DNA of 64,000 nt from Nymphaea colorata (lineage: Eukaryota > Streptophyta > Magnoliopsida > Nymphaeales > Nymphaeaceae): the NCBI RefSeq assembly GCF_008831285.2, contig NC_045146.1:15329289-15393288 (forward strand). Reading direction: 5' to 3'. The position numbers and the translations under genes are program-made. A model generated the notes under the pieces. It did no database searches. It was not told the DNA's origin and was given only the letters and a program-made list of their open reading frames with translations. Shown here one piece after another: positions 2,122 to 46,667 of this stretch. Positions within the stretch are counted from its first letter, which is position 1; every line of letters starts with the position of its first letter.

Positions 2122-3933
2122 TCATATGCTCTCTATGAAATCCAGCATAACCTTCTGTGCTTTCTCATCTGCAATTTTTTTTTTTTTTACAGCAGATCAT
2201 TAGAGAAAGAAGTTGAAGAGGAAGAAAGAAAAGAAAAGAAAAGGCAGGGCAGGTGCTCACCGAGTCTAGGGACAGTGTGTCCCACGGGGTGACGAATGAT
2301 CTTCGGGTTCTCATAGCATTCCAGCAACACCTCTCCGTGTGGCCTCAGGAAGTCCGTCTCCCCTGATCAATCAAACATCATCCCCCACAAAACAAAATTC
2401 TTAAAAACATCACCATCAAAAGGTAAGAACACTTTTTCCACCATTTTTAAGCTCAAAAATTCTCATGATTCCCCCTTATAAAGAATTCCGCGTCTGGTAT
2501 TTGAATAGAATAATTAATATATAAATATACACAAATTATTTTACCAAAACCACGTGTATCAGCAGTATAAATAATAGGTCCGGCGAAAGAGAAACGTTTG
2601 GCCCATGTTGTGGAACGAGTGGCCGACTGCGGTCTAAAAAGGCAGCTTCCTCAAACACGCAAAGCCTTCACGTTTTCGTCCACCAACCAAAAGTGGCTGT
2701 CCCAACCCAAAAAGCGCGGTCACCACTCAACGGAAGGCTCTCTCCTCTCTCATATGAGATCTTTCTTTGTATATAATTACATTCCCTTTTTTTACTTTTT
2801 TTTTTTTTTTTTCAAGAGGAGAATCGAGGATCATGAATGAAGTTCTTTGTGTGTACCAAGAAAATGGATGGAAGGGCGGTCAATCTTTGTGGAGTAGGCG
2901 AGTTCCGCCACATCTGCCTTGGCAAACTTCGCCCCTGAGATGATCACCACGAACTGTATCTTGGGCACCTTCTTCAGGCAATACCCCTGCTCATCATCAT
3001 CAAACCCATAAATCATCACCTCTCGCCATTTTGATGCCATCATTAAAGAGAAAAAACAAGAAAACATATATATCGGATTCCAATTGACAGTGGTAATTTT
3101 CTGATGAACGTGTTGTTCCCCACATTCATAGATTCAACATGATATTTCCAATCAACAAAGGGAAGATAACGAAAAAGGTGGGTGCATAAAGTTTGGGCAT
3201 CGTCTTACCTTTGCTTGCAGGCCTGGCAGAGCAGCTGAGAGGATTGCACCCTGTTTGGTTGTAACAAGATCAAAAGACGAAACAAGAAAAATCATCAAAA
3301 TGGGATGGGAAAAGACATCTACCATCCCTTCATGGATTAGGAAAGAAAAGGGGAATTACCGAAGCATACGAAAGCAAAGACAATCGTAAAGATTCCTGAG
3401 GATTAGGAGCAGAACAGCAGAAGAAATGAAGGGAGGCAGGTGAAGAAGATACCTGAGAGAAACCCATGAACCCGTCAAAGGGCCCGTTCTCGACCATGAA
3501 GTCCTCTATGTAGGCAAGGCACTCGTCGAAATTCCTATACTCCGTAAATTTCTATCGAACCAAAAATAAAGAAAAGAGGAAAAAGTATGGAAGAACAAAA
3601 GTTAGTACTTCTCCATTGAAGAGGGAACAGGGGATGATGGATCCAACAGCACGATGTGCGACAAAGAGAAGAGAGAATACCGACCTCGTTGAATTGGAAC
3701 CATTCGTAGTAGGGAGGGGGGAAGATGTGCTCGACGTCGGATTTGCCTTCGGCAGGGAAGGGCGCGTCGAGGAAGACGAGATCGAACTTGTCCACGAGGC
3801 TATCGGGCCACTTATGGATCTGCTTATTCATGATGGCACCACTGGTTCGGAATCCATGGAGGCACAACACCCTCGGTTTCTTCTTCCCCTTTTTCTCCAC
3901 CACCACCTGCTCCTCCTGCCTCCCCACGTCCAT
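2122..3933 (-). CDS. FSH1-type serine hydrolase (alpha/beta hydrolase esterase), six exons
   Basis: Exons on the minus strand: 3933-3685, 3551-3453, 3250-3209, 2986-2857, 2362-2261 and 2168-2122. All junctions are GT-AG and the phases agree, giving about 222 aa, close to the usual size of the family. The N-terminal strand reads RVLCLHGFRTSG. The nucleophile elbow GFSQGA straddles the exon 2/3 junction and places the catalytic serine at about residue 115. The fifth exon gives ETDFLRPHGE (likely acid near D177) and HPVGHTVPRL (catalytic His near 202). Homologues are alpha/beta-fold carboxyl-ester hydrolases related to yeast FSH1 and human OVCA2; many plant copies are mislabelled dihydrofolate reductase-like. 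No signal peptide is visible, so it is probably cytosolic. The natural substrate is unknown. The start at 3933 is the first ATG before the conserved core. Confidence 0.9.
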
Positions 3934-4107
3934 CTCTCTCAGAAATGAACGCAGAGACTACACAACACCCGCGCCTGCTTTCTGGCGGGTGCCTTGCTCT
4001 GGCTGAGACCCTTCCTTCTCTTCTCGCTGCTAGCCAATCCCCTTCTTTTCCGCCCCGACTCTTTCTGAGGATTTGCATGTGTATAGACCACATCCTTCCT
4101 TCGTCGC

Positions 4108-4114: not shown

Positions 4115-4199
4115 GCGGACTCCGGGGGTCAGCACCCGCGTCTTCGTCCCTTTTTCCCTTCTGTACCCTCATCTGCGTGTCTAAACTTTCCCTCTTTCC

Positions 4200-4690
4200 A
4201 TGTTACATAATGTTGTGATCACATAAATGCTTTATAAATTTATACTGTGCACAGGACTTATATTTATTTATTCATTAGTTCAAATGTTTATATAATATTA
4301 TTTTTTCATGAGCGCGCATCATGAAAAGCCGAGTTTCTTCAGTAGATCAACTTCTCATGTTCCCCAGTAAATAAACAACGGCCACAGGTGGACAGCAAGA
4401 GGGACAAAAATTGGACCGTTAATGAATTAAAAATATATCTTCTGAAGTCTCTTCTCAAGACCATCTGGAAAGAGGGTGGTAGGCGCTTTCAAAATTGATT
4501 CAAGCATAGGGTCAATTACTTGGTATAGAAAAGGACCCTCGATAGCAAACGGTATCAGACAAGATTTCTTTAAAATTTATAAATGCAGAACCATTTTTGG
4601 GGTCAACACGTCTCCTTGTCAACCGTCGTCTCCTCAACAACATCGATAAAGTTATGTATATAGTTGGGTTTTTTTTTTTTTTTTTCGGTG
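4200..4690. other. Gene-free upstream spacer
   Basis: AT-rich sequence ending in a T run near 4671-4685. No gene is seen. Confidence 0.5.
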
Positions 4691-4892
4691 GCAGCTATAC
4701 TTTAACCATTCATTCCTTTCATAGCACAAAAGATTGATGCCATAAGAATTTGAAAGTAGCCGCTATATTTTAACCATTCATTCATTTCATAGCACAAAAA
4801 ATTGATGCTATAAGAATTTGAAAGTGGCCGCTATATTTTAACCATTCATTTCTTTCATAACACAAAAGATTGATGCCATAAGAATTTGAAAG
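4691..4892. repeat. Three-copy 68-bp tandem repeat
   Basis: Units start at 4691, 4759 and 4827 with GC(A/C)GCTATA(C/T)TTTAACCA and end with AAGAATTTGAAAG. The spacing is exactly 68 bp both times, with only scattered substitutions between units. Confidence 0.9.
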
Positions 4893-5039
4893 GAAGACTT
4901 CAACCCAATCCATGGAGCCAACGTACTCGAGAATAAAATTCTTTTTACTTCCTTACCAATTCAGAAAGGTTCCAATGTGAATTTTCAAGTGATGCTTGTG
5001 TCGGTTCTTTGGCTTATTTGGGAAACAGAGAATATTAGG

Positions 5040-5150
5040 TAGGAGCATGCTGTCCAACATTTCTGCAAGCCGTGATTAGGTTCGAACACATGATCAACCA
5101 CCTGCTAGCTAACCAGAGCCCTTGTCAGTTGTGCTAACTCACAAGTGGAA
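5040..5150 (-). mobile_element. SINE-like element, copy 1
   Basis: On the minus strand there is a tRNA-like A-box region (GAGTTAGCACAACTGAC at about 5143-5127). A B-box (GTTCGAACC, 5087-5079) follows at normal spacing. This is the internal pol III promoter layout of tRNA-derived SINEs. A second copy lies near 6700-6790. No target duplication was identified. Confidence 0.45.
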
Positions 5151-5459
5151 TTGTAGAGATATTAGATTAAACATCTTTATTTCTTTTTATATTTGTATAT
5201 GAACGTAAATTATGTATGTATATGTATTATGATCGGCTGGTCCCAAGGTTGTAAGTCGCACGTGATGACGCCATGAAAGGTTGTCTTAATTTCAATATGT
5301 TAATGATTCTACACATGCAATCTGTTATTCAAGAAATATTCACATCCAAACGTTGAATACAACAAGCCTCCCGGTTTACCTATAATTTATTTTTTAAAAA
5401 AATCATATTTTGCAATTTCCTAATAAAAGGCACAATTTTGATTAAAAAATCTTTTAGAA

Positions 5460-6063
5460 AAAGGAACTCGAACTCGGCTTGAGCTCGACTCGAGTTTGAT
5501 TTCATTAGCTCGAGCTCGACTTAGCTTGAGTTCTTAAAACTCGAACTGATTCAACTCGAGCCGAAGATTGGCTTGAGCCAAGAGCGGAGCGAGAATTTTT
5601 TTCATGGGCGGGTCAAACGGTCCAACAAACTTATCCGAGTAGGGCTAAACTAAACCCGAATCCAAAAAATACATTAAGCAACTAAATTTTTTTAATGTAT
5701 TTTTTTTTTCAATTAGCTGCGGTGGGACCATGGCCTAAGTGGCCCCCCCTCTCTCGCCTCTTGGTTCAGCCGAGCTAAGCATTTCATTAAAAAATGATTT
5801 TTTAAAGAAAAGGGCAGTATATAGACTTGAACATAAAGCCTCTCACATACCAGTCACGTGCAATTTACTTTTTTTGATAATTTTATAAGATGTATTTTAT
5901 ATATTTTCTTTCTCAAGCTTAACTAAGTTTAACCGAGTTGAGCCCACTTAACTCTAGCTTGGCTCGTTTAGGTTGTTGAGTTCATTTCTTAACTCGAACT
6001 CGACTCATTTATTGAGTGAGTTTGAGTCGAGTTCGAGTTAGCTCGACTCGTTGAACGGCCCTA
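5460..6063. mobile_element. hAT-type MITE, 5'-truncated copy with nested insertion
   Basis: This sequence is rich in CTCGAGCTCGAACTCG motifs and matches the complete copy at 15871-16394 segment by segment. It shares the GAAGATTGGCTTGAGC segment, CATTTCATTAAAAAA, CTTTCTCAAGCTTAAC and the 3' end TTGAACGGCCCTA. The 5' terminal inverted repeat is missing. Relative to the other copy it carries an insertion at 5578-5764. It has no coding capacity. Confidence 0.75.
5578..5764. mobile_element. Nested small inverted-repeat element
   Basis: This block is absent from the sister element at 15871-16394. It begins CCAAGAGCGGAGCGAG and ends with sequence whose reverse complement is CCAAGAGGCGAGAGAGG, an imperfect inverted repeat. 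The GCGGAGCGAGAATTTTTT start resembles a widespread class of plant MITEs that begin GGGGCGGAGCCAG. About 187 bp, non-coding. Confidence 0.6.
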
Positions 6064-6128
6064 CCCTTCATAATGGTAAAATGTGATATGGGAAAAAATA
6101 AACTGCCATATGAAATAGCAAAAATAGC

Positions 6129-6456
6129 TTTAAAGAGTTGCATAGCATGATTGGTTGAGCTAGATGCATGTGAAAAGGTAGATTTCTAATTTCATTGTTT
6201 GTGTCTGCCATAGTATAGCAATACTTAAGTTGAGAGGTGACCGCTACCATCATTGACCCCGATGCAACTCACTATCATCATCATTAACGCCGATTTAAAG
6301 AGTTGCATAACATGATTGGTTGAGCTAGATGTATGTGAAAAGGTAGATTTCTAATTTCATTATTTGTGTCTTAAATAGTATGGCAATACTTAAGTTGAGA
6401 GGTAACCGCTACCATCATTGACACCGATGCAACTCACTATCATCATTAACGCCGAT
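6129..6456. repeat. 165-bp tandem duplication
   Basis: Two units start with TTTAAAGAGTTGCATA(G/A)CATG at 6129 and 6294 and both end near ATCATTAACGCCGAT. About ten substitutions and one CAT length change separate them. No function is apparent. Confidence 0.85.
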
Positions 6457-6699
6457 GCAGTCTACGACTCCAAAGGTATGAGGGGAGGGGGAAAGGGCGT
6501 TTTAAGGCCCCTTTTATTGCGTGATGAGTTATTAACCTCCTGTTCACTCAAAAAAAAATACGAACAAGATAAGCTAAACCATCGAAATTTCCCTAAGAAT
6601 TGTCACAAGGACAAAATTGTTCCCAAAAACCATCAAACCTTATGCGGAAAAAGCAGTCCAAAGGCCATTAATTACATATGATAATTCACCGAACTGTAT

Positions 6700-6790
6700 A
6701 TACGAAGCGAGGGTTAGGTTTGAGCACATGATCAGCCACCTGTTAGCTGGAGACCTTGGTAGTTGTGCTAACTCATTACTTGAATTGTGG
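6700..6790 (-). mobile_element. SINE-like element, copy 2
   Basis: Minus-strand A-box region (GAGTTAGCACAACTACC) and a degenerate B-box (GCTCAAACC). It is clearly related to 5040-5150. Flanking sequence to the right of both copies is also shared (GATCGGCTGG...GTAAGTCGCACG near 5233 and 7060; CATATTTTGCAATTTCC near 5404 and 7504). A larger repeat or segmental duplication may therefore include the SINE-like part. Confidence 0.4.
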
Positions 6791-7040
6791 AAATATTATA
6801 TTAAACATCATTAGTCCTTTTTATATTTGTATATGCATGCACACACGCAAATACTTTTCAAATGATATTGTGAAATATTATATTAAACATCTTTAGTTCT
6901 TTTATGTTTGTATATGTAGGAACAAACACAAATACTTTTCAAATGACTATGTATGTATATATTGTGAAATATTATATTAAACATCTTTAGTTCTTTTATA
7001 TTTGTATATGCATGCAAACACACAAATACTTTTCAAATGG
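6784..7040. repeat. Three-copy 83-94 bp tandem repeat
   Basis: Units starting ATTGTG(G)AAATATTATATTAAAC occur at 6784, 6867 and 6961, each ending near AATACTTTTCAAATG. The corresponding place in the copy near 5160 has a single unit, so the expansion happened in this copy only. Confidence 0.75.
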
Positions 7041-7489
7041 CAAATTATGTATACATCGTGATCGGCTGGGGTCCCAAGTTTGTAAGTCGCACGAGATGAC
7101 GTTACGAAGGTTGTCTTAATTTGAATAAACGCATGAGATTTTCTTCACGACTGTTCTTATGTCGTTCGCCTTCGCCATTGATGAGCCCTTTGAATGGTAA
7201 TCCATCTTGGCTCCAAAGAACTCATGAGCGATGAGTTGAGGAATTAGTTTAATGAGTAGTCATTAGGTTAAGGGGGAGAACAAAGCAATGGCATCATCGT
7301 GGCAGGAGGCGGCAAAATTGTGGACGACGTTAAGCCAAGAAGATCTCTTTATCTTCTCTCGTGATGCTCATTGCGTGCCAACATCCTTGCTTATATGGAC
7401 CTTAATAATCAATACCCATATCATCTATCATTCAATCAATGAAGATTCACAACCAAACGTTGCATACAAGCCTACCTTTCCACTATAAT

Positions 7490-8446
7490 TTTTTTTAAAA
7501 AGTCATATTTTGCAATTTCCACGTAAAAGTCACAATTTGGTTAGCAAAAAACTGCGAAATAACTACTTGAAATGCGTTTCTGTTTAACTCGAGAAATGAA
7601 AAATATTACTAAAGTGATAGACGTAATAATTTGGTGAGTGAGAGTAATGTGGATATTTTGATCAACGTCGGTTTCTTACTACTAATTTTTGAAAGGACGT
7701 ATCGGCACACAAAACTTCCATGTCATTTATTTACTTGCTATATATAGATATCTATCCGTATATTGATATGCGAACTTCAAAATTGCTCGCCTTTACTTAA
7801 ATGAAAAATTTATAAATAAATGATAGAAGAATAATGCTAACTTTGAAGGAGGACCGTATCCACTAAGTCTCCTTCTAGCTATCTTAAGCTATTGTCATAA
7901 CAAATTTATTCGAAATGTGAAATTAAATATTAACTAGTTTCTTATCAAACACACTCCTATTCATTTTATTCTCTTAGCTATCTGTTGCCTAATGGGTCAA
8001 TCTCTGTGAAAACAACAACAGTAACAACCTGATTTGATATCCCAACTAAACTAAACCTGATTATTTCAGTCTCAACCAGTCTAGGTCCCATGTGTGTGTG
8101 TGTGCAACACAGTGTTTCAAGCCGGTTGAAGATAATGGCATAATGTCAAGTAAGTCTTTCATATATATGGGGAAGAAAAGGAAGAAGACAAGGCATGCTT
8201 TGTTGGAATAATATATCTGCCCACTGTCTTAATCCTCCTGAAAAATAAAATGAGGAAAAAAATAAAGAAATAAAGTAAAGAAAAAGAAAAGATCCCAGGA
8301 CTACAGCATCAATAAGTCAAATTTTCTAACTTGGCCACAGCAAGGTTCTACTCCATACAGCTCACACAAATTCGATTTGGCCTTTTCCCACATGATCACA
8401 GCTACAAATAAGGCCTCCAGGAGGAGGAAGAACACCATTAATTTCA
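7490..8446. other. Gene-free stretch
   Basis: AT-rich with a short GT run near 8093-8104. Presumably it is upstream sequence for the exon at 8447. No TATA box could be placed confidently. Confidence 0.4.
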
Positions 8447-8533
8447 ATGTCGCCCATGGAAGAAACCAGGCTGCTCCTCTTCTTCCTGGTCTCTGCTTCT
8501 GTCCTCCATGGGGCTTCAAGTAAAGCGCCAAAG
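8447..8533 (+). CDS. First exon of a possible small secreted protein (signal peptide only)
   Basis: From ATG 8447 (or the in-frame ATG at 8456) this reads 29 codons: a short charged start (MSPMEETR), a hydrophobic core (LLLFFLVSASVLHG) and a cleavage-like ASSKAPK. It then meets a strong donor, AAG|GTACGTAT. This is a good N-terminal secretion signal followed by an intron. I could not find the downstream exon. One AG at 10267 would add only DPKTL before a stop, and a hAT MITE and the 143-bp array lie downstream. Many plant peptide hormones and cysteine-rich peptides begin like this, but no family can be assigned. Confidence 0.35.
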
Positions 8534-8846
8534 GTACGTATACTTGATATGATACTCCATGATTACCATAATACTAGAACTATGAATTTAGAAACCTGTA
8601 GATAATATTATTTTAACATGTACATAACTATTTACAAAGAACAAACAAATAGATACTAAAATAATATTGTTTTAACATATACATAACTATTTACAAAGAA
8701 CAAAAAAAATAGGTTAAATAAATAGTCAAAACAAATGGTTCAGGAAAAGTTACTAGGGCGAAATCACCAATTTCTGGACCCACTCGTAGAAACCCCTTGA
8801 ACCTGTGCGATTGAGTCATTTTCCCCACTTTACAAGCGAAAATCAG

Positions 8847-9185
8847 TAAGGCTGGACATCGGGCAAGACCAGCCCAACGCCCCAGACCTGGGACCGAACC
8901 CCGCCTGACACCTAAAACCCGAGCCCAATGTCTATATAAAATATATATTAATATAAAATATTTTATAAATATAATTAATCATAATAAAATATTATAATTA
9001 TATATAAAAATCAACAAAAATATATAATAAAAAATCTTATTGGGCCGAACCGGGCTTAGTGGAGCCCACCCTAGCCGATCCCATAGCTTATCAGGCCAGG
9101 CAGGTGCCTTTTTCTCGAACCAGAGCTGGGCTTGAGTTGGGCCGAGTATCAGATTCCCATCGGGTACTCAACCCGCCCAACCTTA
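8847..9185. mobile_element. hAT-type MITE with near-perfect 8-bp target duplication
   Basis: The 339-bp element has terminal inverted repeats TAAGGCTGGACATCGGG and TAAGGTTGGGCGGGT (right end as reverse complement). Flanks are AAAATCAG (8839-8846) and AAAATCAA (9186-9193), a 7/8 match, as expected for a hAT target duplication. The centre (8940-9030) is almost pure A/T. It has no ORF of its own. Confidence 0.8.
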
Positions 9186-9193
9186 AAAATCAA

Positions 9194-10394
9194 GTGCAAA
9201 TGTTGATCGGCTTGAAATTAGATGTACATTTTATAACCGAGCCCAATGCAAGTCCAGTGTCTGATTGGGATCGACTCAGCAGGGATTGTCCGACAAAATT
9301 TGATACGAAAATTTCTGATCTTATGGTACCAGATCAGAATTCCATTTTCAAAAATGGTATCCAATTTCGAATTTGAATAAGAATCCAGCGAAGCATGGTC
9401 AGAAAATATGGATCTGATCTGAGTCGGAACTTTTAATTTGGACCCCCGTTTGATACAAACATTTTCTTTCGTGTCATTGTTTTTCTTTTCTCCTTCAAAC
9501 AAATATCATGCATGCATCCAAGAAAAGAAAGCTGATAAATAATATTTGGGACGCCAATTGCAAATGTTCATCCCACTTTCGTTTTAATTTGCATTCTCAT
9601 AAAAAAAAAAAACAGGACCCATTCAAAGGCCGGACTAAGACAAATTTACAGGATTCATAGTTTTACTTAACCCAATATCTCCCTCTTGCATCTATATTCA
9701 CATGCACCAACGCGTCAAATGTATATCAAAAGCAGCAAGTTGGTGTTCATGCTCACTGATCCACCTTCTTGTAGGATGACACCCTTCTTCAATCTCAATC
9801 TTCTTGGTTTTACACGAACTTTTTAGAATATGATGCAAACTTTTGTTTCTATAAATGCATGAAATAAATGGGCCATTGATGTTCTTCTTTTGTTTGCTTT
9901 AATGCCATGTAGTTATGACATGATGAATTGAGGTGGTCGTAAGGAGTTTTTTGTTTTTTAATGTCTTTTAATGTCATGCATCTAATGGCCATTAGTATGG
10001 AGGTTATAAATATATGCTTTGGTATTTGTGTCAAAGTGTACCAAGGAATGGTCTTGGGTTGTGCATAACATAATAATGTGGTGTGTTTTCCTTCTCTAAT
10101 GAAAAGTTTTTTTTTTGTTGAAGTTAATATTATGCCCATCAACCCATTTTTTACTGTTACATGCTTGTGAGAGAAAACCAGTAGGCATGAAGTGCTCTCC
10201 TCTCTTTGTTTTCCAACTTCATAGGTAATGTTGGATTCTTAATCAGGATGTGCCCATGGCATTGCAGGACCCAAAAACACTATAATGAGCTTCCACATCT
10301 CTTTTGAGGGGTAATCTCTGGGATTAAGGAGATGAACAAGGAAGAAAAATACAGAAGCAAGGAGAGAAGAAAAGGTGCAGCTATCAGTCGAGGG
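9194..10394. other. Gene-free stretch before the 143-bp array
   Basis: The first part (to about 9450) contains GC-rich GGCTTGA/GAGCCCAATG motifs like the neighbouring MITE and may be an older related copy. The rest is AT-rich. The only splice-like signal I noted is GCATTGCAG at about 10260-10268. Confidence 0.4.
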
Positions 10395-12968
10395 GAATAT
10401 GACCTGATTCATTAGGAAGCTTTCTCATTCAGAGAGGAAGACAGAACTCCCGGAGGTTGGCCTTCTAAACTCAAGTCTAGTACAGAAACTTCAGAGTTCA
10501 CATGCAAGAGAGAGTTGTTTCTCCCCTTACTTGAAGGGAATATGACCTGATTCAATAGAAAGCTTTCTCATTCAGAGAGGAAGACAGAACTCCCGGAGGT
10601 TGGCCTTCTAAACTCAAGTCTAGTACAGAAACTTCAGAGTTCACATGCAAGAGAGAGTTGTTTCTCCCCTTACTTGAAGGGAATATGACCTGATTCAGTA
10701 GAAAGCTTTCTCATTCAGAGAGGAAGACAGAACTCCCGGAGGTTGGCCTTCTAAACTCAAGTCTAGTACAGAAACTTCAGAGTTCACATGCAAGAGAGAG
10801 TTGTTTCTCCCCTTACTTGAAGGGAATATGACCTGATTCAGTCGGAAGCTTTCTCATTCAGAGAGGAAGACAGAACTTCCGGAGGTTGGCCTTCTAAACT
10901 CAAGTCTAGTACAGAAACTTCAGAGTTCACATGCAAGAGAGAGTTGTTTCTCCCCTTACTTGAAGGGAATATGACCTGATTCAGTCGGAAGCTTTCTCAT
11001 TCAGAGAGGAAGACAGAACTCCCGGAGGTTGGCCTTCTAAACTCAAGTCTAGTACAGAAACTTCAGAGTTCACATGCAAGACAGAGTTGTTTCTCCCCTT
11101 ACTTGAAGGGAATATGACCTGATTCAGTAGGAAGCTTTCTCATTCAGAGAGGAAGAGAGAACTCCCGAAGGTTGGCCTTCTAAACTCAAGTCTAGTACAG
11201 AAACTTCAGAGTTCACATGCAAGAGAGAGTTGTTTCTCCCCTTACTTGAAGGGAATATGACCTGATTCAGTAGGAAGCTTTCTCATTCAGAGAGGAAGAG
11301 AGAACTCCCGGAGGTTGGCCTTCTAAACTCAAGTCTAGTACAGAAACTTCAGAGTTCACATGCAAGAGAGAGTTGTTTCTCCCCTTACTTGAAGGGAATA
11401 TGACCTGATTCAGTCGGAAGCTTTCTCATTCAGAGAGGAAGACAGAACTTCCGAAGGTTGGCCTTCTAAACTCAAGTCTAGTACAGAAACTTCAGAGTTC
11501 ACATGCAAGAGAGAGTTGTTTCTCCCCTTACTTGAAGGGAATATGACCTGATTCATTAGGAAGCTTTCTCATTCAGAGAGGAAGACAGAACTCCCGGAGG
11601 TTGGCCTTCTAAACTCAAGTCTAGTACAGAAACTTCAGAGTTCACATGCAAGAGAGAGTTGTTTCTCCCCTTACTTGAAGGGAATATGACCTGATTCAGT
11701 AGAAAGCTTTCTCATTCAGAGAGGAAGACAGAACTCTCGGAGGTTAGCCTTCTAAACTCAAGTCTAGTACAGAAACTTCAGAGTTCACATGCAAGAGAGA
11801 ATTGTTTCTCCCCTTACTTGAAGGGAATATGACCTGATTCAATAAGAAGCTTTCTCATTCAGAGAGGAAGACAGAACTCCCAGAGGTTGGCCTTCTAAAA
11901 TCAAGTCTAGTACAGAAACTTCAGAGTGCACATGCAAGAGAGAGTTGTTTCTCCCCTTACTTGAAGGGAATATGACCTGATTCAGTCGGAAGCTTTCTCA
12001 TTCAGAGAGGAAGACAGAACTCCCGGAGGTTGGCCTTCTAAACTCAAGTCTAGTACAGAAACTTCAGAGTTCACATGCAAGAGAGAGTTGTTTCTCCCCT
12101 TACTTGAAGGGAATATGACCTGATTCAGTCGGAAGCTTTCTCATTCAGAGAGGAAGACAGAACTCTCGGAGGTTAGCCTTCTAAACTCAAGTCTAGTACA
12201 GAAACTTCAGAGTTCACATGCAAGAGAGAATTGTTTCTCCCCTTACTTGAAGGGAATATGACCTGATTCAATAAGAAGCTTTCTCATTCAGAGAGGAAGA
12301 CAGAACTCCCAGAGGTTGGCCTTCTAAAATCAAGTCTAGTACAGAAACTTCAGAGTGCACATGCAAGAGAGAGTTGTTTCTCCCCTTACTTGAAGGGAAT
12401 ATGACCTGATTCAGTCGGAAGCTTTCTCATTCAGAGAGGAAGACAGAACTCCCGGAGGTTGGCCTTCTAAACTCAAGTCTAGTACAGAAACTTCAGAGTT
12501 CACATGCAAGAGAGAGTTGTTTCTCCCCTTACTTGAAGGGAATATGACCTGATTCAGTCGGAAGCTTTCTCATTCAGAGAGGAAGACAGAACTCCCGAAG
12601 GTTGGCCTTCTAAACTCAAGTCTAGTACAGAAACTTCAGAGTTCACATGCAAGAGAGAGTTGTTTCTCCCCTTACTTGAAGGGAATATGACCTGATTCAG
12701 TAGGAAGCTTTCTCATTCAGAGAGGAAGACAGAACTCCCGGAGGTTGGCCTTCTAAACTCAAGTCTAGTACAGAAACTTCAGAGTGCACATGCAAGAGAG
12801 AATTGTTTCTCCCCTTGCTTGGAGGGAATATGACCTGATTCATTAGGAAGCTTTCTCATTCAGAAAGGAAGACAGAACTCCCAGAGATTGGCGTCCTAAA
12901 CTCAAGTCTAGTACAGAAACTTAAGAGTGCACATGCAAGAGAGAGTTGTTTCTCCCCTTACTTGAAGG
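10395..12968. repeat. 143-bp satellite-like array, 18 tandem copies
   Basis: GAATATGACCTGATTCA recurs at 10395, 10538, 10681 and so on every 143 bp up to 12826, giving 18 full units (2,574 bp) with no indels that I could find. Units differ by few substitutions (CAGTCGGAAG / CAGTAGGAAG / CAATAAGAAG; CTCCCGGAGG / CTCTCGGAGG / CTCCCAGAGG). The last unit is the most divergent, as expected when unequal crossing-over homogenises the interior. Units 10-12 (11682-12110) and 13-15 (12111-12539) share the same series of variants, so a 429-bp three-unit block was itself duplicated. Because 143 is not a multiple of three, no frame runs through the array. Confidence 0.97.
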
Positions 12969-13764
12969 TTTGCCACCAAATTCATCATATAATTAATGAA
13001 GATCAGACTACCAAAAACTATGTTCAGTTGGCTAGAAACCATCATCCACTTAAACGGGCTGGAAATTGAAAGTCTGGACCTCTTCCCCATTGACATTTAC
13101 ATGATACGGAAGCTTTTTACTTGGCCTCAGGCTGTTAATAAAAAAAAAGAGGAAATTTCAACTACGGGCTTCGTATTCTCATTTTCCTCATAAGATCCTT
13201 TCCATGTCCACTGCTAAGGCGATGCCTCAAGTTGAATCATATCAGTTTGAATCACCTGAAATTTTTTTTTTTTTTTTTTTTTCAACATTGACCTTTGGTT
13301 TTACTTTAAAAGTGTTATTCAGATTTTCACACACACACAAAAAAAGAAAAAAAAAACATTATTTTTACTCCCTTCATGATAACTGATATTTTTAGGTAAT
13401 GTTAAAATATAATGGCAAAGATCGTGAAGGAGGCTACGTGTTATGGCTTAAGAAGCCCAGGGGCCCACTTAACACAGATGTAGGCCTCAAAAAATCGGAG
13501 TTATCAGTAAAAAAAGTGGGGCCTGTATGAGAAAATATCAGAAATGTGAGGCCTATATTTTGGTAGAAGTTTAAATCATGGTTCTTTAAATTTTTTTTTT
13601 CATAAATCATAATTCATAAATACAAAACCTGAGTTTGCATTTATTACCGAAAAGTGTTGCGTTAGTAGAAAAATCCCACACAATAATAATGGAGATATAT
13701 GTAGGCGCACTGTGCTTTGGTATGTGCTTCTCCAATACCAGTCCAATTATCCAATTTCTAGCAT
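12969..13764. other. Gene-free stretch
   Basis: Contains a T tract at about 13262-13282 and an A-rich tract near 13340. No gene or well-bounded repeat was recognised. Confidence 0.4.
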
Positions 13765-14619
13765 CAGTATGGATGTTCAACGAGCCAAGGCAACGTGGGC
13801 TCGACTCGAATTTACACTCAGCTAGAGTTGGACTCATTTGATAAATGAATGCATCAAGTTCAAGTTTAAAAATGAATTCGTTTAAGAAAATGAGCCGAGC
13901 TATCCAGGCTCGGCTCGATTAAGCTCGATTGATCTCGTGGAGAATTAATGTATAATAGGTGTTTCGGTATAGTAAAACAAAAAATACAGCTGGGCTGGGG
14001 CTGCTAGTAAGGAAGAGATTCATAGTTTGGACCTGGTTGTTTCCGCCATCTTCAAAGGTTCGTTTTTTTTTTTAAACAAATCAGCTAGAGCTAGGGATGT
14101 CAATATATCCGATTTAAATCAGATGTCCAACTGAACCGAACCGATCCGAAAAAATCGGGTATAGAAAAAAGTTTCGTGTCTGATTAAGAAATCGGATCGG
14201 ATTCAGATTTAATAAATAGCATCCGATTAGATTCGGATTCGGATATACATAAATATCCGATCGGATTCGGATCAGATTCATTTTTAGACGAATATTATGT
14301 ATCTAATGCTATTAAATTTTGAAAATTGGTAAAATCCGGTTCAAAATTTGGATTTGGATTGTAAAATTGGATTTCAGATTCGGATATGACTTTTCTTTAG
14401 TCAGATTTGAATCTGAGTTCGAATTCGAATATGTGAATATCCGAAAAAACAGATATGATTAAGGATATATCTGATCTGAATCTGATCCGTTGACATCCCT
14501 AGCTAGAGCCAGCCAATCTGAATTCGAGCCATTCTAGGCTCAAGAGACCAAGCTCGAGTTGAGCTTTATCCACTTCAGCAGAGTTTGAGTCAGCGCAACT
14601 CGGCTTATGTTCATCCCTG
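13765..14619. mobile_element. hAT-type element interrupted by another MITE
   Basis: The outer ends read CAGTATGGATGTTCA on the left and CATCCCTG on the right. The right-end reverse complement, CAGGGATGAACATAAG, is an imperfect inverted repeat of the left. The element is flanked by CTAGCAT at 13758-13764 and 14620-14626. The body has the GGCTCGACTCGAATT / AGCTCGAGTTGAGC motifs of the 15871 family. A second element at 14092-14501 splits it. No transposase frame is present. Confidence 0.65.
14092..14501. mobile_element. Nested hAT MITE with perfect 8-bp target duplication
   Basis: This 410-bp element begins TAGGGATGTCAA and ends TTGACATCCCTA, a 12-bp perfect inverted repeat. It is flanked on both sides by GCTAGAGC (14084-14091 and 14502-14509). 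An 8-bp target duplication with TAGGG termini is characteristic of the hAT superfamily. The interior is built of GGATTCGGAT / CCGATCCGAA repeats. It is non-autonomous and younger than the element it interrupts. Confidence 0.92.
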
Positions 14620-14626
14620 CTAGCAT

Positions 14627-15870
14627 GCCCCAAGGAGTTTGACGCACATACTTTAACCAATGGCTGATAAATGGCCGATTGTTGGTTCAAATCACATGAG
14701 CTTCAGCTCCTTGCGCAGCTGACACAGCCTAGGTGGCACGGCTCGCCATCCAACATCCTCAAAAGTGGACGACCAATATGAACTCTACATAAAGTGCATG
14801 CATGGTCTAGAATATTAGCTTCTGTTTCTCTTGAAACCCAGCAATGGCATTGGAGGGTCAATAGAGGAAGCAAAGTATGGGCCTTTTCAGCTCTGTTGTA
14901 CAAGTCAAAGCCACAGGTTTACAAGTTTGGAGTTCAGAACATGCAAATATTGTTGTTTTTTTTTTTTCATTACCAAGGATCTTATATCTGAGGTGACCCG
15001 ACCAGATCACAAAATTCTTGGATCTTAAAGATTTTAGTTTCTTGATTTCTGATAAGGATCTGAAATCCTTTGTCTGAATTACGGGGATTGATCATGAGTT
15101 TGTAAACTTCGCCTCTTGAAATTCATGGAGTTCAAGTCAGAACCCTCACTTTCCCTTGGGATCCAAGGATTTGAGCCATGACATAAACATTAAATCCATG
15201 CTACGATAATTTGTGGTCCTAGTTGGAGCTCAGGTTCAAATTTCGAAGACAGTACTGATCAGATCCGACCCTCTGAAGCCGACCTAGATCAACTTCTGCT
15301 TGTGAACATCAAGGCAGTTCATTTTTCATGTGCATCACTACTTCAGCAACGGAAAGATATTGGATAACTTCTTATGTATGTTATATATTAGAGTCCTTCC
15401 TCGGCTTCTCCCTTCCCCCCCTCTCTAAACTTCATGAGTTCTTGTTTGCTTCCCAACATGAAAGGATTTCTTTTGACTCAGGGCTTCCAAACACATCCAT
15501 GGAATAGTGATCTCTTGGACCATAGAAACTTGTTGTTTCCGTTGCCTACTTGGCACTTGCTCTTGCTTGCAGTATCAATACGCAGAGCTTAGGAAGTAGC
15601 TATAGCTCAACAGGCTCAAATATCTTTTAGACCTCTGTATCAGGCCCTGTTTCCCTATGACCGTTTTTTGATTACCTTGGATTGAAAATTCAAGGTGATC
15701 TGAGTCCCTTGAACTCTGTTCCCTATTCCTATTGGGTTGTTTCGCAATAGTAACATGTTGTTGTTGTTTCATAAATCTATCTAAAAAATTTGAGACAATT
15801 CATAAAATGTCATCACAAAGTATTCCAGGAATCTGCCATAATTTTTGGGGTAGATTCATAGAATAGTAAC
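14627..15870. other. Gene-free stretch
   Basis: Only short frames in conflicting directions. No splice-supported exon or recognised repeat. Confidence 0.45.
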
Positions 15871-16394
15871 TAGGGCTGTTCATGAGCTAGTTTGAGCCAA
15901 CTTGAGTGAGTTTGAACCGAGTTGAGCCAGCTCGAACTTGGCTCATTTCTCTTGAAAGGAACTCGAACTCAGCTCAAGCTCGACTCCAGTTCAATTTCTT
16001 TAGCTCGAGCTCGACTCGGCTTGAGTTCTTAAAACTCGAACTCGAACTCTACTTGATTAATCTCAAGCCGAAGATTGGCTTGAGCAGAGCCAAACATTTC
16101 ATTAAAAAAATTATTTTTTAAAGGAAGAGGCAGCATATAGACTTGAACATGAAACCATCCACATATGTGTATACTCATTTGAGCAATCTACTTTTTTTGA
16201 TAAATCTATGAAACACATTTTATATTTCTTTCTCAAGCTTAACCGAGTTTAACCTAGAGCTCGACTCGTTTAGGTTATCAAATTCATTTCTTAACTCGAA
16301 CTCGACTAGTTTAATAAATGAGTCGAGTTCTAGTCAAGTTTATCGAGCAAGTTTGAGTCGAGCTCAAGTTAGATCGACTTGTTGAACAGCCCTA
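15871..16394. mobile_element. hAT-type MITE, complete copy (TAGGGCTGTTCA family)
   Basis: The 524-bp element has terminal inverted repeats TAGGGCTGTTCA and TGAACAGCCCTA. Flanking octamers are ATAGTAAC (15863-15870) and ACAGCGAC (16395-16402). They match at 5 of 8 positions with all differences transitions, as for an old 8-bp target duplication. The interior has CTCGAGCTCGAACTCG-type subrepeats at both ends. It matches the truncated copy at 5460-6063 and serves as the reference for this family. Confidence 0.8.
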
Positions 16395-16402
16395 ACAGCG
16401 AC

Positions 16403-19080
16403 AGTCAATTGCTATAGCCAAACACCCTTTATGCGATCTCAGAGGTATGTTCTTTCAATATAAAAAAAAATTGAAAACCATTATGATCTCAAATCCACTA
16501 GGGTATGTGGCTGATCTCAGATCAGCTTTGGATCAATGATTTTCTTTTCTCCAGTAACCCGTTCCTATTTGACAGCAAGAGTTCAATCCACCGGACAAGG
16601 TGATCGATTGAGGAACTTTAAGTTGAAAGAGGCGAAACCAGCTTGAACTCCAAGGGATAATTGGACGAGGTCTGCCTAACGCCGCCTTTCTAATCTGAAA
16701 AAGTTCCTATCAAGTTCAGTGTTCATTGATCTTATCAACTGAAAATTTTCCACCATTATGATCGTGGGAAACACCTACTAAACCTCAAGGTTCAAGGCAA
16801 ATTATTGTATTTCACATCTTTACACATATGAACTAAAGGACGAACTATCTGACATATATAATTGATGTTATCAAGTTAAGTTTCTCATCATTATGATCAA
16901 TAATGAAGGCGCCTACCAAACCTCGAGACTGAAGGCACATTAATATTATAAAATGACGAGTTACGTATTGTGTTTATATGATTTGACATTATCGATGTTA
17001 TCAAGCTAGGTTGATTATGCTCAGTGAGGGTTTCTCCTAGACCTTAAGGCTCAAGGCAAATAATTTCATTCTTCACCTAATACAAGAAACTTTACATCAA
17101 AGGTAACCTTTTTAGCATATTAATTATGCTTGAGACAATATTTATCAACCTCACTTCATTAGTATATACTTATATGGGCCCATCAATGACACTAGATTCA
17201 AATATGCATCACTAGCTAGTAGCAAAGCTCTCTCTCTCTCTCTCCCTCTATGTGTGTGCGTGTGTGTTTTTACTACATTATACGAAGACACCCTTCATCT
17301 TGCTATGCAGGAAGATGCCTGCCTTAATGAGAAAGTATTGTTCCAATAGAATATGCTTGAGAGAGTTATATGTTGAACCCAAGGATATGCATGGTTTGGC
17401 ATGATTATATATGAGCTGACGGGCAGGAAGTCATTAACGCAGACCACAAACAAAATCAAACCAAATATTTCTTGACAGGACCAAATTATTTCTTCAAGTT
17501 AAAGAGGGTGGGTTGATAACAGGAATGGTACGTTTTTTTGGAATGCAGTATTCCATACATGAACATGAATTATGGGCACATTCATGAAACATGGCATTCA
17601 TATAGACACATTCGACTTCACACCATGTCCACATCCGACTTTTAAACTGACAACCTGCATCTGATTGAAATTCTGCTTTTAAATTCACAACTTGATCCAA
17701 ACTGTATCATCATATGTTAAAGAACCGACTTTCAAAAAATATTGATGCTAAATATAGGAAAAGTTAACAGGCCATATTGATGCTTAATATCTAATCGGAT
17801 GTTTATTCAATATGGAATCCAAATGTGAATTTGATCTGATCCCAATTTCATTGGATGGCAACTATTTTTCTACATCCAACTTATTAAACTGTAGAACTTT
17901 CAAGTTTTTTTAAATTCTGATTGTTTAGCATTCCAACTATAGTTATAGCACTTGGGTTTTTGGAAAACGATACATATATATATATATATATATGCTGGCA
18001 TGAGCCCCTGTGGCATCTCTGTAGTGATGAAATCAAAGAAAGCAAACCAGTCATCTGTATTGTTCTCAGGGAACGAACTTTCCTGTGAAAAAGGTGCACC
18101 CGTGAAGGTTAGGTAATTGACTCGTCGGCAGATCGAAATGAACTACATACCACACCAATTGAGAGGGGACATGCAGGTTGCAGACATTTGGCCCTACATC
18201 TCAGCCTGTTACTCTCCAGTACTTAACCCTGCTGTTCGTTTCACCATGTACAAAAGTCTGGCCCCCCAAAACTTTCATACTAAAGCCGGTCGAGACAGCT
18301 AGCTCTCTCCCCCATTTCTCTTCTTCACTTTTCTCTGAAACATGGGATCCGGTGTTGGCGGATCTTAAACCATTCACTTTTCGCCGTTCAGGGCATGATT
18401 TCCACTTTTCGACCGGAATTTTATGAGCCTCGGAAGCTACATTAATACTTGAACGGAGTTTTCAAGATAGCAAGATTTCAGCCTCTTTTTTCTAGAAGGA
18501 AGAGAAGAAAAAGTAGTCGCAGCCTGCAGCTGCCCGTTTCTTCTTTAATCTGGCAACGCCGAGAAAACCCAAATCCCGGCAACAATTGAGATCGCAGATC
18601 ATCGATTTCAAGGAAGAAGTGAAACCATGAGAGCTGAATCTCGACTACCAACATGATGGTCGGGATCACCACGCCTCACAATCTGCCGGCCAGTGCCGGA
18701 GAGTTATTGAGTGTTGGTTTTTGTATTGTCTTCAAAACTTCACCAGATCGGATTTCGGTCGATACGCCGCCTTGTAATTTGCTTAGAAATGGAATTTTTT
18801 AATGGTTTATGTTATTTTATTTAAACACGGATAGATATCGAGATGAACCAATCAATTCAAAACTGATATTCAGCCCCAATCGGATGACATTTAAAGGAGG
18901 TCAGGCATTTATTTCTGCATCGTTGTTGAGACGATGCAATGGCTAAACAAATACGGCCCCCGCCGGACAGGCACCGATTTAATGGCACTAATGCCAACGA
19001 CCTGGCAGCTGTCCACAATTGAAACCCCATCGATCGTTAATTCAACTCTTCGGAGTCGTGCTGTAAAAGTCTATTTGTAA
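16403..19080. other. Gene-free stretch with microsatellites
   Basis: Contains a (CT)n/(GT)n microsatellite at about 17228-17268 and a (TA)n run at about 17971-17992. No exon with coherent splice sites, domain or codon pattern was found. Some GGATGTTTATTC...GATCTGATCC motifs near 17800 suggest decayed MITE sequence. Confidence 0.45.
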
Positions 19081-19090
19081 ATCAAACCTG

Positions 19091-19476
19091 TGGGGCTGCC
19101 GAACCGGTGCCTACATGCACACATGCCGAGTTGAGCTCGACCTTGGTAAACTGGAACATCTCAAAAAACTCTAGCTCTACTAGACAAAATCAATCTCGAA
19201 CTCGACTTGTTTAGACGGTAAATCGTCTAAGCATTAACTCGTGTAACTTGTAAAAAAGATTTTTTATCCTAAAAGTTAAAACCGGTGAATTGGTTTTAGT
19301 AGTATTATATAGAGTGCTGGTTCGCGAATCGAGTCGAGTTCTTGAAATTCAAACTCGACTCATTTATCATTTCGAGTATTTTTGTAAGCTCGAACTCGAC
19401 CTATTTTTGTAAGCTCGAACTCAACCGGCAGGAGCCTGAATTGGCTCAACTCATTCTGCAGCTCTACCCACATTTC
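19091..19476. mobile_element. Degenerate copy of the TAGGGCTGTTCA hAT-type family
   Basis: Left end TGGGGCTGCCGAAC and right end (reverse complement) TAGAGCTGCAGAAT are decayed versions of the family terminus. The body holds several CTCGAACTCGAC segments. No target duplication is readable. Confidence 0.45.
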
Positions 19477-19479
19477 ACA

Positions 19480-22400
19480 TATGTAGCGCTGCACGGCACT
19501 GGGCAGCAAGTCAAACGAACGATGATTAAAGAATCAGCCGCCGTGCCGTGGATTTTCCTGGAAAAGGCGGGTAGTATCTTCTTCATTTTCCAAATTAACA
19601 TAATTTGAAGTGATATGACAAGAGGTAACCTTGACGAAGTATGCCAAACATGTGTTTCTTATGGATCGAGATGTATGTTGCCCCAAGAAATGAACCAAAA
19701 GATAATCATGAAGATCAGAACCAGAATCGACAAGAAAAGTTGTCGACCTTAGATGCCAAAGTGTCGTCGGTGGCAACCCATGTCAAACACGTTGCTCAAA
19801 TTGAGCCCACTAGTTCCTATTCCTTGCTGCCACTCGTGAGCGCACACCAAACAACAGTATATAAAAATATATTTGAAAATCATTTCTAGTATGTTTGAAT
19901 GCCTTGGATAAGATGTCATGTGGGGCCGGTTGATGTGGCATGGGCCTCAAGCAACAGCACTATGAGATAATCCAAATGTCAATGTCATTGGATAGGAACA
20001 CAAAAAACTTCAAACCCATAAAACAGTGTTTGATGAGAAGAGTCGCTTTTATTTCAGGTAAAAGATATTTTGGAAGGACAGTGATTCATTAAACACTGAA
20101 AGATTCACAGGGTGAAATTCACCGTCCCGCTGTTGATGTAAAAAATGAAAAAGACTCCAAAGGTGTCCCCTACATTTTCTTTTCTTTCCTGCATTCTGCA
20201 TGCACTGATGAACTCTGGATTGATCATCTGGAGAAATTTTTGCGATGATGTACACATCCTTGCCAAAATGGTTCATGAGAGATTTTAGATCTCTTAAGAA
20301 GACATTCGGCGGACAAACATATTTGCTAGCTTGTATCTCAGATCCAAAGGAAAGATCAGAATCTTCCGGTGTGTCTGATTGCTTTGGATATCAGATTGAT
20401 CAGGTGAAATGAAAGCCTAAGGAACTCAGATTTTGGGATTGCCCAATACAAGCATTCAGCTAAAGACTGGTCTTTATTAGGATTTTGAAGATCTCAGAAC
20501 TTGATCTTCCATTATTATTGAAGAAAAAAAGATGATCAGCTCTTCGTTCCAACCCTACAGAGGCCATCTGTTTCAGGTCCACTGAATTTGAGAACTGAGC
20601 CAAGGACGCCAAACCGTAGCCAAAAATAATGGTACTTGATCTTCTTTCTTCCTTTTTCATCCCCTTGGCTCGCATGCTGAGGGATGACAGCTACGCATTT
20701 CCTCAGCTTGATTCTTGATGATTGAGTCGCTCTTATATTCAGGAAAGGCATTTTTCGAAAAGTTAAAATTTTCACTCCATATCTTTAGGATTCTCACTAA
20801 ATATGAATCATTTATTAAACTCGATTGATGATTTATAATGTGCACCAGGTAGAGTTATTTATATGCTAAAGCAAAATTTTCATGTCAATCTACTTATCAA
20901 AAAAATGGCAATAGAGAATATGAAGCGACCTGTGCAGAAGAATAAGTGCTAATTGCTAGCATGCTACCACCACCAGAAAAGGGGTAAAAGATAAAGTAAC
21001 ATGTTTCTTCCAAGACTGCAATAGTCCACAGTAAAGTATATTCCTTCACGTGAAATCTGGTATGCAATGTTCAAATATCGCAAAGTGGTACAAGGGACCA
21101 ACCAGAAACAGTAGCTTCAGACATAATACTCTTGGTACCCCAAGTGGGCATCCGTGTACTTGATGTTTAGGCGCTTGCATTATTGGGCAACTTGGTTTTA
21201 GAAAAGACTACACAAATAATAAACAAATCAAGAATGCTGATCTCAACTCCAACTTCGTGTACGCTTCTCTATACCACTGGAAAAGAATGAGGTGCGCTTT
21301 ACAGTGAAGACCTTTATGAAATCAACAATTGTGTGTTAGGCCTTCAAGTTATCAGTGCCGCAGTCGTTTAAATTCCAAACATGACTTTCCCGGTTCCTGT
21401 TTGAGTATGCGTTTTCTGATAAAAGTGTTTGAGGAGCGGCCTGCACTTTCACATGAACGCGCCCTACCCAAGTCGAGCTCCATGAACTCTCCTGCTGAAT
21501 CCATGACAATGGCGATGGACGATGCATTGATTAACATTACTGGGGCTGGGGCAACAACACAGATCATGTAGAACAAGCCTCCATTTGACTGGTTTCCTTG
21601 TAGAGAGGATCATTTAGACATTCTCTGGTCATCGGGGTGCTTCTCTGAAACAAACCAACAACCATTACAAAATAACTCAAGATGGTCTTTGTACATCTGT
21701 CTTCCAACACCAGCTAGTGGTCTGCCCCTAGCCAATATGAACAAAAGAGCTCCTCCAACATCATTATCAATTTCCCACACCAATAACCTATATACACACA
21801 CATATATATATATATACACACACGCATGCACATAGCTGTTTCCCAGATGACTACAGAAGCTTACGTCAGCAACAAATATCTCTGACGCTTACTGAATCCT
21901 TTTTACATTCAGTATGTTGCACAGGAAACACATCAGTTTTTATCTCCTAAACCAAGGAGAACCTGATTTTATTCATTAGAAAATCAATGAAACCCCAGCT
22001 AGCTATGGTGCAGACTTGTACTGATTTCTATGCCCACTGTCCCCTCCACAGTGTGCTCAGATCCAACCCAGCTGTAAAGGATGTACGCCCTGATGTAGTT
22101 ATATCCGACATTTTTCTCTCCAAACCAACGTAGTTAGGTTCTTGAATTTCTTGGTACCCCCATCATACTTGATTTTTTTATCAAAGTCTAGATGGGGTTG
22201 AGTTCATGTATGCTTTTTATCTTATGTACTGATTAAGATGAACTCATAAATGAGATTTATGCATCATATCTTTTCCAAAGTATGGATGCTTGGCTGAAAA
22301 CCAGCACATTTCTTGCAGCCAGCTGTGCTGAAAGCCTGTGGCTGAAGACGGTGATCTACCTAATAGCTTCATTACAAGCTGATAGATGGTTCATTTCTAA

Positions 22401-22740
22401 CTTCTGATACAATGTCCTGGTTTGGTGCTTTCAAGCAATAATTGCAGCCACCTATTGTCATCATTTCTTTGCAGTAGGTGAAATAGACAGACCACAATAC
22501 TAGCATCCCAAATTTGAGGTCAAAACAAGTTCAAAAAGTATCCAATTTAAAAAACATTTGTTTATTACCAACAACAGGGGAAAAGAAATTTGACAATGAC
22601 CATAGTAGATAAGAAGTTCTAAAAATAAAGGTTGGATAAGTGAGCAAGAGTATGGTCCCCATGACAGCCACTGCTTAGCTGGCTCCTCACAGCTTCTCAG
22701 ATGCTTCTTCTTGGCAGACGTGGGACACTCTCTCAGTGCT
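19480..22740. other. Gene-free stretch upstream of the XTH genes
   Basis: Several 60-80-codon frames occur on both strands but none has a domain, splice support or consistent direction. A (TA)/(CA) microsatellite lies at about 21793-21824. A minus-strand frame at 21352-21567 starts with a hydrophobic stretch (FYMICVVAPAPVMLIN) and could be noticed as a small-peptide candidate, but nothing else supports it. Confidence 0.4.
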
Positions 22741-22752
22741 GTCTTGGGTAGC

Positions 22753-22760
22753 TATAAATA
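22753..22760 (+). promoter_or_regulatory. TATA box of the first XTH gene
   Basis: TATAAATA lies 176 bp upstream of the exon 1 ATG. The same GCTATAAATA core is found upstream of the second XTH gene, so it was probably inherited from the ancestral promoter. Confidence 0.65.
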
Positions 22761-22935
22761 GCTTGCTCAGTGTATCTACTCTCCTCACACTAAAATCAAA
22801 GACACACTTCAATTTCATATAGTATCGCCGCTGCCACTGCCACTTGAAGTTTTCTGCTACTCTCTCTGCTTCCATACTTATTCCCCTCATTTCAAGCTTA
22901 ACTCAACTGCGCTCTTGCTAAAACCTTTCCCCAAA

Positions 22936-24105
22936 ATGTCTTCCTTCCATAGTGCTACAGCTCTGCTGCTGGTTCTGCTGCTTGGATGCTTCGTTGCTTC
23001 CATGGCAGATTTCTCATCCACTGTCGACATCACATGGGGAGACCACCGTGGCGCGATTAGCAGGAATGGTCAGCAGCTTAGCCTCTCTCTGGACAAGATA
23101 TCAGGTTCAGGTTTCCAATCCAAGCAGGAATTTCTATTTGGCAAGTTTGACATGAAAATTAAACTGGTCCCAGGCAACTCAGCAGGCACGGTTACTGCAT
23201 ACTATGTAAGTTTCCGAAATTCTTTTCCTCTGTAGAAGGGATGCCTTTTAATACGGAAAACTTCTTACAGATAATGAAGTCCTATCAAATTGCTCATGCT
23301 TCGTTTATTTTTGTAACAGCTGTCTTCCCAAGGGCCCTTCCATGATGAGATAGACATGGAGTTCCTAGGTAACCTCAGTGGCCAGCCCTACACTCTGCAC
23401 ACAAACGTCTACACACAGGGGAAGGGAAACAGAGAGCAGCAATTCCACCTCTGGTTCGACCCAACTGCTGACTTCCACACCTACACCATTCTCTGGAATC
23501 CCCAGCAGATAATGTAAGTCGAAGACGCACCACAGATCTTTAATCCACTGATCCTCAAGCTTGTCCCTTCTCTTTACAAGAAGCAATCCTAAGCAAGTGG
23601 CTTTTTTAGGTTGCTCAAATGCACTTACAAGTTAGAACTGTCTGTTGGATTAAGGCTCCATTAATCTTAATAACAGTGACAGTAACAATAAACTAATAAA
23701 GAACACGTTTTTGAAATGATTTGCAGGTTTTATGTGGATGGAGGGCTCATCAGAGTGTTTAGGAATCATCAATCAGCAGGAATAGGCTACCCAAGCAAGC
23801 AAGCGATGAGGTTGTACTCCAGCCTGTGGGATGCAGAGGACTGGGCTACACAGGGCGGCCGCGTCAAGACCGACTGGACAAAGGCACCTTTCACCGCAAC
23901 CTTCAGCAACATCGGCATCAGCGGATGCGCAAAAACAGGTTTGAGCTCCTCATGCGATGCTTCCTCTTCTGCTTGGATGAACCAAGCTGCGGTGACCTCG
24001 GACCTGCAGAAGATGAACTGGGTACAGAAGAACTACATGATCTATAACTACTGCAGAGATGTGCAGAGGTTCCCACAGGGTCTCCCACCCGAGTGCTCAC
24101 TCTAA
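22936..24105 (+). CDS. Xyloglucan endotransglucosylase/hydrolase (XTH), copy 1
   Basis: Exons 22936-23205, 23320-23513 and 23727-24105 have GT-AG borders and coherent phases and give 280 aa, normal for the family. Residues 1-24 are a signal peptide (hydrophobic core [15 protein letters not shown]). The GH16 active site reads [10 protein letters not shown], with nucleophile E100 and acid/base E104. The usual N-glycosylation sequon N108-L-S follows at once. The C-terminal XET_C domain includes [13 protein letters not shown] and ends [13 protein letters not shown] enzymes cut and religate xyloglucan chains in the cell wall. Catalytic residues and C-terminal cysteines look intact, so the product should be active. 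The first in-frame ATG is at 22936; the frame upstream is open only from a TTG. An AATAAA lies at 24162-24167. Confidence 0.95.
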
Positions 24106-25115
24106 GCAGCCTGCCCACTTCATACAAAAGTAGTTCTTGAAATTCTTTCATCAAATCTTGCAATAAAAGGGTGTTTTATTGCCAGAACTTTTTGTTTCTT
24201 TCCTTTCGGTCTCGCAAACTCTGTTTCAGCTCCTGTGAACGGGCCAGTGGACATGAGCTAGTGTGATAGTGGATCCTTTCTACATCACTTGTACTTTTAC
24301 AGTTTACACAAATATTTGTAATTATGTGTTTTCGTGAACAAGTTTGAATAGCACGAAGCTTGTGGTAGAAACTATGCGTCGCACTTAGCGTTGAGTGGCA
24401 TCAAAACGCAGAACGTGAACGGATTGTATTCGGGCCTCAGTATATTCCTCGCAGAATGTCGCCAAACAAGATACTGCATCGTGGATTGAAGCGAACGTAT
24501 AAGAAAAAGAAAAGGAAGTCACCGGATCCGTGTGGCTTATTAGATTGAACTTGAGGCCTTCCTGAGGTGATCAAAAGTTTCAATACTGGGGTTGTATCTA
24601 ATGGTGGGAACTGATAAGCTCTGCCTGCCTACAACTTACTCAAAAGAGATAGATTGAGAAAAAGGGAGAGACTATAGGGGCAACCAACGTATCATGGTGG
24701 TTTAAGCAACAATTATTGTAATTCAAGTCTGCATATAATTATTGGCTGAAGGTCAATAGCCCTAGTGGTGGTTTACCTTGGATCTAGGTAAGGGAGCTGA
24801 ACTATATATGACTCGTGCTGAGAGAGACTTCAAATGCACGCTTTTAAAAGTCTTTAAGATCCATGTTTTCCAAATATCCGCATAAAAGGCAGCCTTGGAG
24901 AAGGGTATGACTACAAGAGCAAAAGGAGCTGCAAAGAATAGTCATACTATATCTTTGACAAAAAAAGGAAAAAGAAAAAAAATGAAACTGCTTTTAAAAA
25001 AATTGAAATTGGCTAGGTTCAAGCCTCATTTAGGCCTGTTGGGCTGAGCAAGCCGAGTGCCAGGTGCAAAACTCGCCATGACCCAGTTCCCAACAAGCTC
25101 AAACTGTCTCGAGGG

Positions 25116-25214
25116 GCATAATATAACTGGTTAGACTGTTAGCTAGTGAGAACCCTGTCATGAAAGGTGCATAATGTAACTGGTTAGACTGGTAGCCGGT
25201 GAGAACCCTATCAT
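25116..25214. repeat. 53-bp tandem duplication
   Basis: GCATAAT(A/G)TAACTGGTTAGACT recurs at 25116 and 25169, each unit ending GTGAGAACCCT(G/A)TCAT. The ATAACTGGTTAGAC part looks a little like a tRNA A-box, so a decayed SINE is possible, but there is no B-box. Confidence 0.7.
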
Positions 25215-29270: not shown

Positions 29271-29433
29271 CACTGGCTTCGGTGAGGTGTTGAACTACTC
29301 CTCTCTCGCACACAATTTCTTCTTCTACACCAACTTCACTCCTGCAAATACATAAACGCTGTTGATCTTATAATACTTCTAGCAATTAATCAGAAGCTTC
29401 AGCCTGAGTTGAGTCTACTTCTTTCACCCCAGC

Positions 29434-36938: not shown

Positions 36939-36953
36939 TTTTTTTGTTTTTCA

Positions 36954-46527: not shown

Positions 46528-46570
46528 GGACGCAACTGATGATGACCAGAAGGACTTCTCGGAAGGAAGG

Positions 46571-46575
<5 letters not shown>

Positions 46576-46665: not shown

Positions 46666-46667
<2 letters not shown>

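Follow-up and report, generated by a model that had tools for sequence, protein, structure and literature searches.

Centromeric higher-order repeats such as those of alpha satellite consist of a multi-unit block that is repeated at near identity. Satellite-length repeats are also found in short euchromatic arrays, which the available portion of a review (PMC12692304) describes as common and as possible "seeds". For the yeast CUP1 locus, the accessible part of one study (PMC4232551) gives founding junctions with at most 3 bp of homology (types 2 to 5) or none (type 1), and names unequal crossing-over among the known ways in which CUP1 copy number changes. The water-lily array described here lies in a 64-kb window, by which we mean the whole stretch of DNA that was analysed. 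With the low-copy euchromatic seeds, as that portion of PMC12692304 presents them, it shares a non-coding sequence, a unit longer than 60 bp, a short standalone form and a position between genes; unlike them, it was found at one locus only. Its resemblance to CUP1, as covered in that part of PMC4232551, lies in the little homology at its presumed founding junction (GG here, at most 3 bp there) and in copy change apparently through homologous exchange, whereas CUP1 units bear genes and span ∼1.2 to 2 kb and the units here are non-coding and 143 bp long.

In the 64-kb window, TRF placed one array at 10393-12968, with a period of 143, 18.0 copies, 0% indels and a score of 4809 (Table 1). Together with the unit table, this result bore out the constant 143-bp period, the 18 units and the lack of indels claimed in the original prediction; the limits given there, 10395-12968, do locate the array, but the unit frame was off by two bases, complete units running from 10393 to 12966. 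Across the 18 units, the mean pairwise difference was 4.72 bases (96.7% identity), and 21 of 143 alignment columns were variable. As predicted, the terminal unit diverges most: unit 18 shows 8 differences from the consensus, against 1 to 5 in the remaining 17 units, and its mean distance is 9.41, against a median of 4.09. This divergence is one-sided, with unit 18 far from the rest and unit 1 not. With 18 non-coding, head-to-tail units of 143 bp (above the 60-bp mark), the array falls in the class of satellite-length tandem repeats. Stops in all six frames ruled out a coding repeat, the longest open run being 52 codons.

Table 1. Coordinates of the array, its internal features and the neighboring features in the window
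Feature	Position	Strand	Basis
Tandem array, 18 head-to-tail units of 143 bp	10393-12966	.	TRF and unit table
Exact 143-bp tandem pair across units 2-4	10556-10842	.	Lag identity (lag-143 identity starts 10556-10699)
429-bp block, first copy (leftmost placement; start slides up to 11737)	11704-12132	.	Exact tandem identity
429-bp block, second copy (leftmost placement)	12133-12561	.	Exact tandem identity; lag-429 identity 11704-12165
Unit 13, chimeric junction unit (head like unit 16, tail like unit 10)	12109-12251	.	Column comparison
Unit 18, terminal, most divergent	12824-12966	.	Consensus differences and mean distance
Short tandem duplications, period 48-165, 1.9-3.0 copies	65-379, 1337-1434, 4694-4892, 6129-6446, 6784-7061, 25112-25214, 54147-54263, 61862-62030		TRF
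FSH1 hydrolase domain	3535-3957	-	Pfam
First GH16/XTH-like gene (GH16 domain in part, 22900-23200)	22762-24105	+	Pfam
Second GH16/XTH-like gene (GH16 and XET C-terminus)	29413-30865	+	Pfam
RING finger	36315-36950	-	Pfam
Aminotransferase I/II stretches	43770-44834 and 45601-45912	-	Pfam

Units 10 to 12 and 13 to 15 had been said to carry the same series of variants. This held for units 11 and 14, which are identical, for units 12 and 15, likewise identical, and for units 10 and 13 from column 25 on, but not at columns 22 and 24, where units 10 and 13 differ. The unit tree nevertheless paired 10 with 13 (support 0.874), 11 with 14 and 12 with 15, so the phylogenetic check proposed with the prediction was passed. 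Over lags of one to nine units, the longest identical stretch was 462 bp at a lag of three units (429 bp), and a stretch of at least this length arose in 3 of 5000 trials when unit order was shuffled (p 0.0006, same lags). The 429-bp block occurs exactly twice in tandem for every start from 11704 to 11737, that is, in 34 equivalent placements. Columns 1-40 of unit 13 show no differences from unit 16, and likewise none from units 4, 5, 8, 12 and 15, and its columns 41-143 show none from unit 10, with the next nearest units 3 differences away. Because unit 13 joins the head of unit 16 to the tail of unit 10, the exchange maps to the 34 bp at 11704-11737; because it is the junction chimera, it differs from unit 10 at columns 22 and 24, both on the same side of the junction.

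Both the relation between units 10-12 and 13-15 and the head of unit 13 follow from a single exact duplication of 429 bp, with no mutation needed in addition; when it is undone on the sequence, 15 units are left, and these keep their variants. Both an in-register duplication and a chimeric junction unit, the marks of an unequal exchange product, are present. Provided that the assembly is correct, the sequence thus shows that one in-register unequal exchange, or an equivalent template switch, took the array from 15 to 18 units. The locus had also been called a snapshot of satellite birth by unequal exchange. Unequal exchange as the origin of the block is well supported by the exact duplication, the chimeric unit and older mosaicism (below); satellite birth is a possible but unproven outcome for the array. 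The name higher-order repeat was an overstatement, since the block occurs twice only and amounts to a segmental duplication inside the array: blocks are 100% identical and units 96.7%, yet there are just two block copies. Alpha satellite likewise has a near-identical multi-unit block, but here there are just the two copies, in one small array. The first reading is thereby borne out and slightly sharpened, in that unit 13 reads as a recombinant and units 10 and 13 are not equivalent. The two 429-bp copies show 0 differences. Plant substitution rates are about 7e-9 per site per year, which may not be the water lily's rate. On that rate, we infer that the event would date roughly to within the last half million years; later gene conversion would equally erase differences.

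Other exchanges within the array appear to be older. The exact 143-bp pair across units 2-4 is possibly an older single-unit duplication. Units 1 and 9 are identical, A at column 24 is common to units 2 and 3 (and 10), G at column 50 to units 6 and 7, and T at column 57 to units 4 and 8. Since several column pairs, such as 22/58, 22/67 and 24/122, carry all four combinations, parts were probably exchanged among units on several occasions, unless the same mutations recurred.

How such an array compares with neutral expectation was assessed with two simulations, with event sizes and rates of our own choosing. The second, matched model comprised tandem duplication, deletion and mutation; of the 3000 arrays that it produced, each with 15-21 units, 620 had similar divergence. 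Among these 620 neutral arrays, a block of at least 462 bp was present in 363 and a terminal unit, at either end, was the most divergent in 475. One end at 1.8 times the median distance or more, with the other at 1.0 times or less, was seen in 47 of 620, so the one-sided pattern is less usual, yet not strange. The first simulation was less well matched (60 runs at each of four mutation rates, giving arrays that averaged 14-15 units and were mostly more divergent); there, 462 bp was reached in 17, 12, 5 and 4 of 60 runs per rate, and in 9 of 18 runs in the better matched subset of the lowest mutation rate. Under these models, a long block and a divergent terminal unit are common under neutrality, and the array is real but ordinary. 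It is a neat but ordinary case of a known kind of repeat growth and changes no general view.

The original prediction of a single-locus array fits a search of the genome (407.8 Mb, 783 contigs) with a 572-bp array query, in which the sole locus found was the array itself; at least 5 matches were returned, all inside it, and these counts are lower bounds. Elsewhere in the 64-kb window, the unit had no match at E ≤ 1. At the level of titles and abstract openings, no description of this repeat was found among the papers listed. The Nymphaea minuta T2T genome paper, in the part available, mentions a tandem repeat, Cen-42, and the term 143 is absent from its main text.

We consider it highly probable that the array is a non-coding, apparently locus-specific intergenic plant tandem repeat, grown by in-register exchange and most likely without selected function. 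Its founding would have been the tandem duplication of a unique 143-bp stretch. At the left border, ...GTCGAG gives way to GGGAAT..., and at the right, ...CTTGAA to GGTTTG...; the outer borders have only GG in common, which fits founding by near-homology-free duplication, as at CUP1, with proof requiring an empty site. Growth and partial homogenization would have followed through in-register homologous exchange between misaligned copies, a mode supported by the constant period and the mosaic variants; its origin may be meiotic, sister-chromatid or replication associated. If the assembly is right, the last readable event is the 429-bp duplication, whose exchange point falls where units 10 and 13 align and which took the array from 15 to 18 units. 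Copy number would be expected to vary among individuals. Counted against this explanation are the one-sided divergence, the low CpG and the lower block fractions in the first simulation.

PacBio-type drafts tend to err in repeats, and the 429-bp block could stem from misassembly, for instance if two haplotypes that differ in copy number were joined in one contig. The identity of the two copies over all 429 bp speaks for this, as does the genome paper (PMC7015852), which in the part available describes a draft from PacBio RSII data. Private variants persist in several other units, however, so the array has not fully collapsed. Since a 2.6-kb array is also short relative to long reads in general, we regard such an error as unlikely. 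Equally improbable is an origin of the array from tandem repeats inside a transposable element (a Helitron or an LTR-element UTR), even though the available portion of PMC12692304 names such elements as a frequent source of short arrays. When the 2-kb flanks were compared, the strongest of the matches listed was inverted and joined 8962-9024 with 13554-13620 (67 columns, 70% identity, E 6e-4), but it is AT-rich and away from the borders, and within 60 bp of the borders no exact direct or inverted match exceeded 6 bp. Transposon ends were sought in each flank alone and flank against flank and were rejected, with mainly AT-rich and poly-A/T matches and no border repeats among those listed; because Helitrons lack terminal inverted repeats, this terminal-repeat test does not exclude them. 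The absence of the unit elsewhere in the window and its single locus in the genome search also argue against a mobile source.

Tandem repeats at maize b1 and Arabidopsis FWA are regulatory or produce small RNAs, and the array might in this way affect the neighboring GH16/XTH gene or the hydrolase gene. Its position between recognized gene domains is compatible with such a role, as is its low CpG: o/e is 0.19 in the array but 0.71 and 0.64 in the two 5-kb flanks. This depletion might be a sign of methylation and of some role in chromatin; it counts as one observation rather than 18, since all units are copies. Variable columns are also weakly clustered, with four within five columns (20-24; p 0.047 in units 1-17). 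Against these points, deamination-type variants were found at 4 of 16 CG/CHG and 7 of 47 CHH sites (p 0.45), so methylation-driven variation was not supported, and the array had no TG/CA excess relative to the window. Nor was there a notable fold: unit 3, folded as one unit, gave z of 0.97 and −0.80 for its two strands, no better than shuffles. Finally, the nearest domains found, those of the FSH1 hydrolase and GH16, between which the array lies, are ∼6.4 kb and ∼9.9 kb off. We therefore regard regulatory action as very improbable. A structured RNA was likewise not supported, given this ordinary folding energy and an Rfam search with no family at the gathering threshold in the window and none at E ≤ 1 in 10250-13100. 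ARAGORN, run with the bacterial code, found no tRNA. Period 10 was the strongest among eight dinucleotide periods, a comparison made with no control and not used as evidence.

A bolder reading is rather unlikely: the array would be a satellite seed that is young, still growing and confined to a single water-lily lineage, having one old and one renewed end and single exchange events that can be ordered and placed to within tens of bases. Were it true, the rate and polarity at which satellites grow could be read directly from a comparison of individuals. If copy number does vary among individuals, the locus could provide a marker and a means to measure exchange rates. It may also serve as a teaching example, in that variants mark the units, the expansion can be undone on paper and the exchange point falls within 34 bp.

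Around the array, none of 22 stop-to-stop frames of at least 80 aa in 4185-22760 scored above the Pfam cut-off, and two gave weak matches below it (E 0.057 and 0.062); shorter exons would escape such a scan. About 1.9 kb before the array, a signal-peptide-like open stretch of 28 residues (8450-8533, +) ends in a GT that resembles a donor site. It had no Pfam match, and an unrecognized transcript across the array is possible for that reason. Farther off, the two GH16/XTH-like genes stand in tandem, and a perfect 90-bp CT repeat (46576-46665) adjoins the aminotransferase I/II stretches, in a region (43770-46707, -) that we take to resemble ACC synthase. Local tandem duplication appears common in the window, since 10 of 11 TRF rows with a period of at least 40 have 1.9-3.0 copies. 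These short duplications, two of which are 100% identical, are of the same kind as the array, stopped at two or three copies.
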